Source of the DNA: Aurantibacillus circumpalustris | Lineage (GTDB): Bacteria; Bacteroidota; Bacteroidia; B-17B0; Aurantibacillaceae | NCBI RefSeq assembly: GCF_029625215.1 | Contig: NZ_CP121197.1 | Coordinates: forward strand, 4,340,001-4,404,000 | Direction of reading: 5' to 3' | DNA length: 64,000 nt | Part shown: piece by piece, positions 4,623 to 37,657 of the stretch | Numbering within the stretch: position 1 is the stretch's first letter | How the letters are laid out: each line of letters opens with the position of its first letter | Program-made: the position numbers and the translations under genes | Notes under the pieces: generated by a model | The model's input: only the letters and a program-made list of their open reading frames with translations | Told to the model about the DNA's origin: nothing | The model's database searches: none

Positions 4623-5782
4623 ACAAAGTTTATATTTTAGTTATCTTATTTGTAATGTTTTTAAGTTATGGGAATTCCCCTACTGATGGCGTTTCGGATA
4701 AGTTATTCTCAAATGATAATCACTCAAACATATATCTCCTAAGTCGGGCACAGAAGGTAATGGCCAATAAACTTGATTTCTGGTTCACCGACATGAACAA
4801 GAAAGGCCTTTTTAACGGAAGTGTTCTTGTATCTAGAGCCGGAAAAGTTATTTATAAAAAATCTTTCGGTATTTCTGATAAATATACCCAGCAGGCGCTT
4901 ACGGACTCTTCCATGTTTCAATTAGCCTCTGTTTCAAAAGTTATTACTGCAACTGCGGTACTTATGCTTCATGAAAGAGAAATCATCGATATTAACAAAC
5001 CTTTCAAATTTTATTTTCCAGATTTTCCATACGAAAATGTTAATGTAAAAGATTTATTAAATCACCGCTCAGGCTTACCAAACTACATCTATACCCTTAA
5101 CAACGAAATTTGCAAACCGAATTATCAAATGGATAATTCAGATATGTATACTTGTTTTGTTTCAAAAAATTCGCGAGAGTACTTAAAGCCCAATACGCGT
5201 TTTAATTACTGCAACACTAATTACGCACTCTTAGCACTTCTTATTGAGAAAACAAGTGGCAAAACATATCCACAATTTCTAAAAGAAGAGTTGTTTACGC
5301 CTCTTGGCATGAAAAACACTGCCACCATAGTTGATATTGATCTAAATAGTGCAAAGGTTACAAAACCATATGATAACCGCTGGAGGCCTGTAGCTTTTGA
5401 CGCAAGCGATTATGTATTAGGAGATAAAAGTATTTATTCAACACCTTTTGATCTTTTTCTTTTTAGCGAAGCAATGTATAACAACAGAATAATTCGCCCT
5501 GAAACACAAGAGTTAGCTTATACTGCATTTAGTAAAGAAAAAAGAGTTGATAATTACGGTTATGGCTGGAGACTTAAGGATTATAAGGATCCTGACAAAA
5601 AAGAGGTATATCATAACGGTTGGTGGCATGGTTACCGCTCTTCCTTCCACCGTCGTTTAAATGACACGTTAACTGTTGTAATTCTTAGTAACCAGTTAAA
5701 CCGTTCGGCTTATCAAACGTATAAAGTATACGAAATTCTTGATAACACAAAAGGCATAGCGCAAGTGGACGAAGAAGAATAA
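4619..5782 (+). CDS. Exported beta-lactamase-fold serine hydrolase
   Basis: A 387-residue protein with an N-terminal signal sequence (residues 1-18). The serine beta-lactamase/DD-peptidase fold (Pfam Beta-lactamase, AmpC/EstB-like) is shown by the S104-V-S-K107 nucleophile motif, Y197-C-N199, and an HNGWWHG segment in the place of the third KTG/HxG box. Family members include D,D-peptidases, esterases and class C beta-lactamases, so the substrate cannot be assigned. Coupling to mtgA by a four-base overlap suggests a cell-wall role such as trimming new peptidoglycan. gldF begins 32 nt downstream. Confidence 0.82.
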   Translation: MNKVYILVILFVMFLSYGNSPTDGVSDKLFSNDNHSNIYLLSRAQKVMANKLDFWFTDMNKKGLFNGSVLVSRAGKVIYKKSFGISDKYTQQALTDSSMFQLASVSKVITATAVLMLHEREIIDINKPFKFYFPDFPYENVNVKDLLNHRSGLPNYIYTLNNEICKPNYQMDNSDMYTCFVSKNSREYLKPNTRFNYCNTNYALLALLIEKTSGKTYPQFLKEELFTPLGMKNTATIVDIDLNSAKVTKPYDNRWRPVAFDASDYVLGDKSIYSTPFDLFLFSEAMYNNRIIRPETQELAYTAFSKEKRVDNYGYGWRLKDYKDPDKKEVYHNGWWHGYRSSFHRRLNDTLTVVILSNQLNRSAYQTYKVYEILDNTKGIAQVDEEE

Positions 5783-6555: not shown

Positions 6556-8267
6556 CAAAAAAAATAACCACTTCTAATAAACGTAAGGATGTTACTTCTC
6601 TAGCAGCTGTCATCGTAATTATTCTGCTGTTTAACTTTGTGGGTTCCTTTTACTTTGAGCGGTTTGACCTAACAACCGAAAAAAGATATACACTTGCTGA
6701 ATCAACAAAAAATCTATTGAAGAATTTGGATGATGAAGTATATTTAAAAGTATATCTCAATGGTGATTTTGATCCTAGTTTTACTCGCTTAAAAAACGAA
6801 GCGAGAGAAATTTTAGATGAATTTAGAGCTTACTCGAAAAACCAAATCCAATACGAGTTTATTACTCCTGGAGAAGGTGTAACACCAGAAGAAAAAAATA
6901 ATCTCGAAAAACAATTGTACGAAAAAGGTTTGATGCCGGAAGAAATTACGATGCGTAGTAGTGACAAAACTACTCAAAACAGAATCTGGCCCGGCGCAAT
7001 CATAAGTCATAAAGGGAAAGAAACCGTTTGGCAAATATTCAATCGTCAGTCAACGGGAGTTGAAATGGAAACCTCCATTAATAATAGTGTCGAAGAATTA
7101 GAATATAGCCTCACCAACTCCATACGAAAACTTCAACGTACCAAAAGACCAGAAGTTACTTTTATTCAGGGACATCATGAATTGGATACTATACAACAAT
7201 ATAGTTTTATGAAGGCCCTGTCTGAGTACTACGATGTTAATCAAACTACCATTACTCCAGGTAGAGAGCTGAGATCTCTTAAGGGGAGTGATGCCATTAT
7301 AATTTCTAAACCTGATAGTGCATTCACCGATAAAGAAATTTATACAATCGATCAATACATCATGAATGGCGGGAAAGTTTTATGGTTAATCGATCCGGTT
7401 TATACTAACCTCGATTCGCTTCGTACTGGATTTACGCTTGGTTTAAACAGGCCTCTTAATATCGAAGAAATGTTGTTTAAATATGGGGTACGTTTAAACC
7501 CGATACTAATTCAAGATATTCAGTGCAGCTATTTGAAGATAAATACTGGTTTCCAAAAAGGCCAACCAAAATTTGAATTACTTCCTTGGGTTTATTCTCC
7601 GCTAGTATTGCCTGATATCAATCACCCCATCGTAAAAAACCTTGATCTTATTAAGTTCGATTTCTTGAGTACAATTGATACTATTACTTCTGCAAGAAAT
7701 ATTAAAAAAACCATTCTTCTTAAAACATCTAAATACACCAAAACACAGCCAACTCCCGCGCGCATATCTTTAGCTATGACAAAAATGAAACTGAAAGAAT
7801 CACAGTTCATTAATTCCTACCAACCTGTTGCCTGTCTGTTAGAAGGGGAGTTCACTAGTTTCGTGGAAAACCGTCTTCCATCTGTACTTTTAAACGACAC
7901 CAACTTTAAACACATCGACCATGGAAAAAACACAAAAATGATTGTGGTTGCCGATGGCGATGTGGCAAAAAACGAATATGCGAGAAATACCGGACAAGTT
8001 TATCCCTTGGGTTATGATAGAAATACGCAGCAAACCTTTGCCAACAAAACATTTTTAGTAAACTGTGTTAATTATTTACTTGATGACGAAGGCATGCTTC
8101 AATTGCGTTCGCGAGAAGTAAAACTAAGATTGTTAGACAAAAAGAAAATAAAACAACAACATAGTAAATGGCAATTTATTAATGTTGCAATGCCTCTGCT
8201 GATTGTAATAGCTTTTGCCTCTATTCAATTTTACATACGTAAACGCAAATACGCCGCAGCGAAATAA
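6549..8267 (+). CDS. gldG: Gliding-motility ABC transporter component GldG
   Basis: A 572-residue protein with one N-terminal membrane helix (residues 17-33), a large extracytoplasmic region and a C-terminal membrane helix (about residues 545-562) followed by a basic tail. The early segment FDLTTEKRYTLAESTK is characteristic of GldG / IFT52-like ABC transporter auxiliary proteins. The start lies inside gldF (7-nt overlap), so the two subunits should be made together. It is convergent with the response regulator gene; no clear terminator is visible in the 29-nt gap. Confidence 0.92.
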   Translation: MVTKKITTSNKRKDVTSLAAVIVIILLFNFVGSFYFERFDLTTEKRYTLAESTKNLLKNLDDEVYLKVYLNGDFDPSFTRLKNEAREILDEFRAYSKNQIQYEFITPGEGVTPEEKNNLEKQLYEKGLMPEEITMRSSDKTTQNRIWPGAIISHKGKETVWQIFNRQSTGVEMETSINNSVEELEYSLTNSIRKLQRTKRPEVTFIQGHHELDTIQQYSFMKALSEYYDVNQTTITPGRELRSLKGSDAIIISKPDSAFTDKEIYTIDQYIMNGGKVLWLIDPVYTNLDSLRTGFTLGLNRPLNIEEMLFKYGVRLNPILIQDIQCSYLKINTGFQKGQPKFELLPWVYSPLVLPDINHPIVKNLDLIKFDFLSTIDTITSARNIKKTILLKTSKYTKTQPTPARISLAMTKMKLKESQFINSYQPVACLLEGEFTSFVENRLPSVLLNDTNFKHIDHGKNTKMIVVADGDVAKNEYARNTGQVYPLGYDRNTQQTFANKTFLVNCVNYLLDDEGMLQLRSREVKLRLLDKKKIKQQHSKWQFINVAMPLLIVIAFASIQFYIRKRKYAAAK

Positions 8268-36066: not shown

Positions 36067-36098
36067 TTCCTGTTAAAGATAAAGCTAATTGCTTGAAT

Positions 36099-36131
36099 AA
36101 AAAAAGTCGCCACTTTAATTCGTAGCGACTT
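36099..36131 (-). terminator. Minus-strand terminator after hpf
   Basis: Stem AAGTCGC (36104-36110) / GCGACTT (36125-36131) with an A run on the plus strand (T run on the transcript), 22 nt past the hpf stop. Confidence 0.78.
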
Positions 36132-36152
36132 CTCAATTGGCTCTTTTTAGAA

Positions 36153-36458
36153 CTACTGATGATGCTCTATTAATTTATCTTTATGTTTCTTTATTTGCGT
36201 TTTAAGCGCTTCACAAACCAAGTCAGTGGCTTCCTCAAAACTTACACATTGTTTCTTAGCAAAAAACTCTTGTCCTTTTCCGAGTATTTTTACTTCAGAA
36301 ATTTTATTATCACTCGTACTACTTTTATCGAGTCGCAACGTTACTTCACCGCTGATTATTCCATCATAAAATGTATTTAGTTTTTCAACTTTTTCATTGA
36401 TAAAGTCGAGTAACTTTCTGTCTGCAGTAAAATGCACTGATTGAATGTTGATTGTCAT
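36153..36458 (-). CDS. hpf: Ribosome hibernation promoting factor (HPF/RaiA, short form)
   Basis: A 101-residue protein with the beta-alpha-beta-beta-beta-alpha layout of short HPF/YfiA: NIQSVHFTADRKLLDFINEKVEKL, then EVTLRLDKSSTSDNKISEVKILGKGQEFFAKKQ and a C-terminal helix (SFEEATDLVCEALKTQIKKHKDKL). The family binds the 30S decoding centre and stores idle ribosomes in stationary phase. It is 27 nt downstream of xerC. It has an exceptionally strong Shine-Dalgarno sequence, unlike its neighbours, so its translation may respond to ribosome state. Confidence 0.93.
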   Translation of the reverse strand: MTINIQSVHFTADRKLLDFINEKVEKLNTFYDGIISGEVTLRLDKSSTSDNKISEVKILGKGQEFFAKKQCVSFEEATDLVCEALKTQIKKHKDKLIEHHQ

Positions 36459-36465
36459 AGCTTTT

Positions 36466-36474
36466 CCTCCTTTT
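36466..36474 (-). promoter_or_regulatory. Extended Shine-Dalgarno sequence of hpf
   Basis: The transcript reads AAAAGGAGG, then 7 nt, then ATG. This pairs over at least eight bases with the 16S rRNA tail (CCUCCUUU). I checked the leaders of the other genes in the window and found no comparable site. Bacteroidota ribosomes normally mask their anti-Shine-Dalgarno. Confidence 0.85.
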
Positions 36475-36485
36475 AATTTATGTTA

Positions 36486-37379
36486 CTAATTGCCCGATCG
36501 TGGATGGGCTTGATTATACGATTTTTTTAATTTATCTATTGAATTGTGTGTGTATATCTGAGTCGCCGATAAATTGGCGTGCCCTAATAATTCTTTTACA
36601 GCATTAATATCTGCACCATTATTTAATAAATGAGTCGCAAAGGTGTGTCGCAAAACATGTGGACTTTTTTTCTTATTTGTAGTTACACTGCTTAAAATTC
36701 CTTTTACAATCTTTGTAATTTTCCCAGCGCTTAATGCTTTATTACTGAGCGTAACAAATAGGTGCGGATTATCAAGGTTATTTTCTTTCTTTTCTTTTAG
36801 ATAAGAAACAATACTTCTTTTTAATTCAACGTCAAATGGAATGATTCTCTCTTTACTTCTCTTACCTAATACCTTTAGTTGAGTATTGAACAAATCAACA
36901 TCACTTTCTTTTAAACTTAATATTTCCGCCCGCCTCAAACCTGTTTGATACAATACGTCAATAATTAATTTATCGCGCATTCCTTCAAAACCTTTAGCAA
37001 AGTGCTTGGTTTTAAAAATTTCAGCAAGATGATTTTCATCTATAAAAACAGGTAATCGTTTCGGTGTTTTTGGTCCCTGAATTTTTTGAGTTGGATTTAC
37101 ATCCACCAATCCATTTTTAAGTAAATATTTGAAAAAAGATTTTAAAGTGCTGATCTTCCTATTAACACTTCTAGCAGAAATACCATTATCCATTAAGGAT
37201 GCAATGAAAGATCTAACGTATTGGAAAGAAATTGTGGAAAGCGAATAGGACATTATTTCCTTATCTAAAAAGGAGAAAAACTGTTTAAGATCTGCTTCGT
37301 AATTTTTCGATGTAAGAGGGCTAAATCTTTTTTGTAGATTTAAGTAGGATAAAAAACCGTTTACTGCGCCCTCAACCAT
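36486..37379 (-). CDS. xerC: Tyrosine recombinase XerC
   Basis: A 297-residue recombinase, partner of XerD at dif. The N-terminal core-binding domain (FLSYLNLQKRFSPLTSKNYEADLKQF) is followed by the catalytic set TGLRRAEIL, LGKRSKERIIP, HVLRHTFATHLL and LGHANLSATQIYTH (Tyr nucleophile). It lies between rpsU and hpf; a minus-strand terminator is just before its start, so it relies on read-through or an unseen promoter. There are no mobile-element features nearby. Confidence 0.9.
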   Translation of the reverse strand: MVEGAVNGFLSYLNLQKRFSPLTSKNYEADLKQFFSFLDKEIMSYSLSTISFQYVRSFIASLMDNGISARSVNRKISTLKSFFKYLLKNGLVDVNPTQKIQGPKTPKRLPVFIDENHLAEIFKTKHFAKGFEGMRDKLIIDVLYQTGLRRAEILSLKESDVDLFNTQLKVLGKRSKERIIPFDVELKRSIVSYLKEKKENNLDNPHLFVTLSNKALSAGKITKIVKGILSSVTTNKKKSPHVLRHTFATHLLNNGADINAVKELLGHANLSATQIYTHNSIDKLKKSYNQAHPRSGN

Positions 37380-37386
37380 ATAAAAT

Positions 37387-37426
37387 AAAAAATCCTAATC
37401 GAAATTATACATTTCAAATTAGGATT
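37387..37426 (-). terminator. Minus-strand terminator after rpsU
   Basis: Perfect 9-bp stem (AATCCTAAT at 37391-37399 / ATTAGGATT at 37418-37426) with an 18-nt loop and a T run on the transcript, placed between rpsU and xerC, ending 8 nt before the xerC ATG. Confidence 0.78.
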
Positions 37427-37459
37427 GCAATTAAAATATCTAAAAAAATAGAAAAAGGG

Positions 37460-37657
37460 CTATTTTTCGATAGCGCCGATTTGTAATTTTTGCTTGTAAG
37501 AAGCTTTAATGATTTCTTCGCGACGACGAACTGAAGGTTTTGTGAATTTTGAACGATCACGTAGTTGCTTTACAACACCAGTTTTTTCAAACTTCTTCTT
37601 GTACTTTTTTAAAGCTTTTTCAATATTATCGCCTTCTTTAATCTGAACTATTAACAT
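37460..37657 (-). CDS. rpsU: 30S ribosomal protein S21
   Basis: bS21, 65 residues: MLIVQIKEGDNIEKALKKYKKK is the family N-terminus, and SVRRREEIIKASYKQKL the basic C-terminal part. In Bacteroidota bS21 helps hold the 16S 3' tail away from mRNA. Its leader (about 22 nt from the predicted promoter) has no Shine-Dalgarno. It is followed by a terminator, then xerC and hpf on the same strand. Confidence 0.95.
   Translation of the reverse strand: MLIVQIKEGDNIEKALKKYKKKFEKTGVVKQLRDRSKFTKPSVRRREEIIKASYKQKLQIGAIEK

Follow-up and report, generated by a model that had tools for sequence, protein, structure and literature searches.

Why should the gene for a ribosome hibernation factor carry a strong Shine-Dalgarno (SD) site in a bacterium whose ribosomes probably hide the very sequence that would read it? 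The question is raised by hpf of Aurantibacillus circumpalustris, which lies in the 64,000-nucleotide stretch of DNA analysed here (the window). It was approached through the site itself, its rarity in the genome, its conservation in relatives and its genomic context.

The hpf gene and its Shine-Dalgarno site

The gene (36153..36458, minus strand) encodes a short hibernation promoting factor of 101 aa. The product is an HPF/S30AE protein with a Ribosomal_S30AE domain (PF02482, E 2.6e-19) that covers residues 3-96, leaving no space for a second domain, and the C-terminal dimerisation domain of long HPF is absent from it. Along the minus strand, the stop codon TAG of an upstream xerC gene (36488-36486) is followed by the 27-nt TAACATAAATTAAAAGGAGGAAAAGCT and the hpf start codon ATG (36458-36456). 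AAAAGGAGG occupies 36474-36466, 7 nt 5' of this ATG, and contains the SD core AAAGGAGG (36466..36473, minus strand), separated from the start by the spacer AAAAGCT (36459..36465, minus strand). The genome has two 16S rRNA genes, and because the 3' end of both reads ...GGAACACCTCCTTTCT, the core forms eight contiguous pairs with CCUCCUUU in the tail, at a duplex energy of -12.2 kcal/mol; this value is independent of the tail end chosen, provided that the tail contains CCUCCUUU. The site thus combines complementarity to the organism's own 16S 3' tail with a position inside the 4-10 nt before the start that define an SD. The leader RNA is unstructured, with the SD accessible and a fold test unremarkable, and no Rfam matches were found within the window. 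The best reading is that hpf translation starts by true pairing between the SD and the 16S tail.

The original observation of a strong SD, 7 nt and an ATG ahead of hpf is therefore borne out, although the site had also been called extended, and this description does not hold. The extended sites of the rpsU type span 9-13 bp, at -14 to -21 (PMC9976891), whereas the hpf site is a strong core SD of 8 bp only: an A follows GGAGG in the leader, so that pairing extends no further.

Rarity of strong sites in the window and the genome

That no other start in the window has anything similar was confirmed. The 43 other starts came from a gene caller, which missed the short hpf itself, and the two best of them, the first a doubtful TTG start, reach -8.0 and -6.5, against -12.2 for hpf. 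The background for the genome came from 851 kb of sequence, made up of 40 stretches together with the window and three small loci. Since the stretches had been chosen around AAGGAGG sites, SD counts in them are biased, and AAGGAGG-containing sites were left out of the background. On this basis, 4 of 352 confident genes reach -9 and none reaches -12, compared with 37 and 8, respectively, of 1055 mock windows. Genes reach either level more rarely than mock windows, which indicates that SDs are depleted or avoided in this genome.

An exhaustive search of the genome, covering AAGGAGG cores with ATG starts (AAGGAGG-N2-13-ATG), returned 81 sites against 129 for the backward control, most of them inside genes. 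Once the sites inside genes were removed, about nine remained at plausible gene starts, namely hpf and about eight others: rplE, rplF, rplI, hsp20 and genes for tonB-like, SPFH-like, response regulator and HipA-like proteins. Here and below, all genes except hpf, xerC and rpsU carry names that we presume from reading the protein sequences. The claim that the genome otherwise lacks SDs was thus too broad, and hpf is one of very few carriers, not the sole one.

Several of these other sites deserve description. The strong SDs of rplE, rplF and rplI lie at 8221 and 9638 of locus L222 and at 5130 of locus L221. The hsp20 gene (locus L205, genome position 1825698, minus strand) has a perfect strong SD, AAAAGGAGG, that its genus homologues lack, bar one or two; a reading of these sites as a stress regulon was dropped because the hsp20 SD is not kept across the genus. 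Furthermore, AAGGAGGATTAACCATG occurs four times in the genome (1279352, 1283540, 2525983 and 2530219), in two pairs with about 4.2 kb between members, as a duplicated element.

Conservation within the genus

Alignment of hpf leaders from relatives had been put forward as a check, and the site proved to be kept, both in the genus and in many families of Bacteroidia. Within the genus, 35 of 36 hpf leaders reach -9 or better and GGAGG is invariant in 34 of the 36, while the flanks vary and the spacing ranges from 5 to 9 nt, a pattern that speaks for maintenance by selection. At the same genus loci no SD was found at xerC (0/34) or at rpsU (0/32). One leader without GGAGG (locus L065) pairs in a shifted register as AGAAAGGA, still at -10.3. 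Two genus members with small genomes (G003 and G024; loci L274 and L294) gave no hpf match, and the rplI SD is missing from them as well.

The shifted variant bears on the nature of the site. GGA-rich leaders are targets of CsrA in other phyla, and GGAGG might accordingly serve a CsrA-type regulator or a small RNA and not the ribosome. The AGAAAGGA variant, however, retains pairing with 16S rRNA while losing GGAGG, the distance from GGAGG to the ATG is typical of an SD, and the window has no Rfam match. A CsrA binding site was rejected, as no CsrA was found in the genome, and we give this family of explanations only the slimmest chance.

The SD is not exclusive to hpf within the genus. In 25 genus genomes it is present at rplI in 19 and at rpsR in none, and the rplF leader has GGAGG or GAGGAG in all six members sampled. 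With rplI and rplF bearing SDs too, the site is no mark of hibernation alone. The main rival explanation starts here: the SDs of hpf, rplI, rplF, rplE and a few other genes might simply aid initiation or start positioning on all ribosomes, with no regulation by bS21. It would account for the similar sites on rplE, rplF and rplI in this genome, the latter two in much of the genus, and it agrees with the moderate SDs, -8 to -12, listed by McNutt et al. on such genes in certain Bacteroidia (PMC9976891). Against it, SDs are depleted across the genome, and on the ribosomes of wild-type Flavobacterium johnsoniae a strong AGGAGGU site in a reporter gave no gain and even slightly less GFP (PMC9976891). 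We regard a general boost as possible, though rather unlikely.

Spread across Bacteroidia

In 395 Bacteroidia genomes, a search pattern designed to display the hpf leader gave matches in 136. A count by eye puts GGAGG leaders in about 13 of the 34 family codes with genuine matches, and two more families have AGAAAGGAG leaders, giving roughly 13-15 of 34 sampled families. Named loci place the hpf SD in Pedobacter, Mucilaginibacter and Daejeonella, among others, and hence in Sphingobacteriaceae; the family names of genomes known here by handle (G) were inferred from such loci. In Flavobacteriaceae-like, Fluviicola-like and several other families hpf has no SD; many families of Bacteroidia are SD-less at this gene. 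In the openly available literature we came across no report of an SD at hpf in Bacteroidia.

Among 143 xerC-hpf loci placed on a tree, 78 have the hpf SD, which has changed state at least 17 times. Such a history would be compatible with scattered losses of a relic of ancestral SD use that has no present function. The invariance of GGAGG in 34 of 36 genus leaders, despite variable flanks and spacing, speaks against this, and we consider a relic very improbable. Independent pairs on the same tree revealed no coupling between the hpf SD and the rpsU SD. Where both genes have one, as in Pedobacter and Mucilaginibacter, the rpsU site reaches about -17 and the hpf site about -12; in rpsU GGAGG is followed by T, and in hpf by A (66 of the 76 hpf leaders with GGAGG).

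Other SD-bearing starts were noted in individual lineages. In the Sphingobacteriaceae-like genome G139, genes with AAGGAGG starts, as read from their proteins, include hpf, rpsR, rsmH and ftsW; hpf is the AAGGAGG gene start that G139 and the genome under study have in common. The rsmH-like gene of G139, for a 16S rRNA methyltransferase, has an SD of -16.3, and the ftsW-like gene one of -13.8 (loci L303 and L302). In Fluviicola-like loci (Crocinitomicaceae; L145, L146, L156, L163, L167 and L203), AAAGGAG precedes xerC, the middle gene, but neither rpsU nor hpf. L146 is titled Candidatus Kuenenia stuttgartiensis, but its rpsU-xerC-hpf locus is that of a member of Flavobacteriales and almost the same as L145, which makes it a mislabelled MAG. 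The lineages with the altered ASD (anti-SD) UCUCA are Flavobacteriales, in which hpf mostly has no SD.

Neighbouring genes and transcript context

The genes rpsU, xerC and hpf share one direction on the minus strand, rpsU being two genes upstream of hpf. The first (37460..37657, minus strand; PF01165) encodes bS21 of 65 aa with Tyr54, and its leader has no SD, although rpsU carries one in numerous relatives. The second (36486..37379, minus strand; PF00589, PF02899) encodes a XerC/D-like tyrosine recombinase and is likewise without an SD (leader -4.8). Between them lies a hairpin with a T run (approximate limits 37386..37427, minus strand; fold z -3.4), apparently a terminator or attenuator that limits xerC-hpf; a stable hairpin 5' of xerC is found across the whole genus, with a median of -16.8 kcal/mol. 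As the hairpin parts rpsU from xerC, xerC and hpf seem to be expressed through read-through or from an unrecognised promoter. The hairpin with its T run stops about 10 nt short of the start of xerC and recurs genus-wide (loci L004-L033). Directly 3' of hpf, an inverted repeat with a T run read from the sequence (approximate limits 36097..36135, minus strand) is a probable terminator.

With hpf as the last gene, 27 nt behind xerC, the SD might serve to recapture ribosomes that have just finished xerC. Gaps are short in the SD-bearing loci (median 27 nt) and shorter still in the SD-less ones (median 15, p 0.002, in a comparison that ignores relatedness), as if tight coupling could replace the SD. 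However, the SD is kept in L153, L169 and L200, where xerC is not adjacent and hpf is preceded instead by some unrelated gene, divergent in L153, or by a gap of more than 170 nt. This argues against a pure coupling role, which we consider distinctly unlikely.

A proposed role for bS21-deficient ribosomes

In F. johnsoniae, bS21, bS18 and bS6 together form a pocket that holds the 16S tail. When bS21 is lost or mutated there (deltaC or Y54A), translation of rpsU'-gfp increases 3-4-fold, and a tuf reporter carrying AGGAGGU rises more than 2-fold in deltaC and about 1.7-fold in Y54A or upon depletion (PMC9976891). By the same calculation, the site of that reporter has a strength of -12.5, compared with -12.2 for hpf. 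Tyr54, the bS21 residue that contacts the tail, is present in the bS21 of this genome and in 75 of 75 hpf-SD loci in which bS21 was found. With a site as strong as that of the reporter and this tyrosine in place, hpf is expected to respond once the ASD is freed.

We therefore favour, with a probability of roughly 55%, the reading that hpf is translated by SD pairing, gains an advantage once the 16S tail is released, loss of bS21 being the best-supported route, and has ribosome storage as its output. In this uncultured lineage of Bacteroidia, initiation on hpf would use the 8-bp pairing with the 16S tail. Unaltered ribosomes in this class keep the tail in the bS21-bS18-bS6 pocket, as probably happens in this organism too, and read SD-less messages; a maintained SD would then favour hpf whenever the tail is free, making it one of few favoured messages. 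The tail would most plausibly be freed on 30S subunits without bS21, in late assembly or after loss under stress, or where the pocket is open for other reasons. Abnormal ribosome composition would in this way lead to more HPF and hence to ribosome storage; that an altered ribosome triggers storage is something the data suggest but do not prove.

The complementarity to 16S rRNA, the conservation in the genus, the hpf SDs of other families, the depletion of SDs in the genome, the shifted but still strong pairing in L065, the retention of the SD away from xerC and the unstructured leader all speak for this mechanism. Against it stand the strength of the site, which at about -12 is below the published mark of bS21 autoregulation (stronger than -13; PMC9976891), the many families with an SD-less hpf, and the uncoupled behaviour of the hpf and rpsU SDs on the tree. 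The original interpretation thus survives in part: the site is conserved, its strength equals that of a responsive reporter and Tyr54 is kept, but the idea that bS21-deficient ribosomes are the main readers of hpf is not supported, the SD is not exclusive to hpf and a link through rpsU autoregulation fails, as rpsU has no SD in the genus and the published rpsU feedback loop is therefore absent here.

A bolder extension would be a tiered SD regulon that bS21-deficient ribosomes read in many Bacteroidia outside Flavobacteriales, in which rpsU (about -17) first restores bS21 and hpf (about -12) parks ribosomes at deeper deficiency, the genus studied here having lost the rpsU tier so that a shortage of bS21 would bring hibernation and not repair. 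We offer this as speculation that is unlikely to hold in full.

Relation to known systems

Few specialised ribosomes have a defined regulatory output; in bacteria the clear case is bS21 controlling its own gene. A conserved SD at hpf would bring ribosome storage under the same switch, which would thereby gain a physiological output. We found a single genome-wide SD survey (McNutt et al. 2023, PMC9976891). It covered 200 Flavobacteriales, in which it judged SD control to be confined to rpsU, dealt with ribosomal genes only in other orders, and makes no mention of hpf. Its conclusion for Flavobacteriales should not be extended to the whole class. Since the culturable Pedobacter and Mucilaginibacter carry both hpf and rpsU SDs, the idea is directly testable.

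Compared with bS21 autoregulation of rpsU (PMC9976891), the hpf site shares a strong SD in a class with an occluded ASD, a class-specific bS21 with Tyr54 and an SD strength in the responsive range. It differs in the gene concerned, in length and strength (8 bp and about -12, against 9-13 bp and about -20), in belonging to a genus whose rpsU is SD-less, and in a dependence on bS21 that is putative here. As it lacks both hallmarks of the rpsU class, the gene and the extended length, we file it as a variant that possibly works likewise and not as a member. The moderate SDs on rpsR, rplE, rplF and rplI in Bacteroidia (PMC9976891) lie in the same range, -8 to -14, and those of rplE, rplF and rplI occur in this genome too; hpf, however, is no ribosomal protein gene and is the steadier carrier in the genus (35/36, against 19/25 for rplI). 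In bacteria that use SDs routinely, AAAGGAGG with a 7-nt spacing would be a textbook site; here, in contrast, it stands in an SD-depleted genome of a class known to sequester the ASD.
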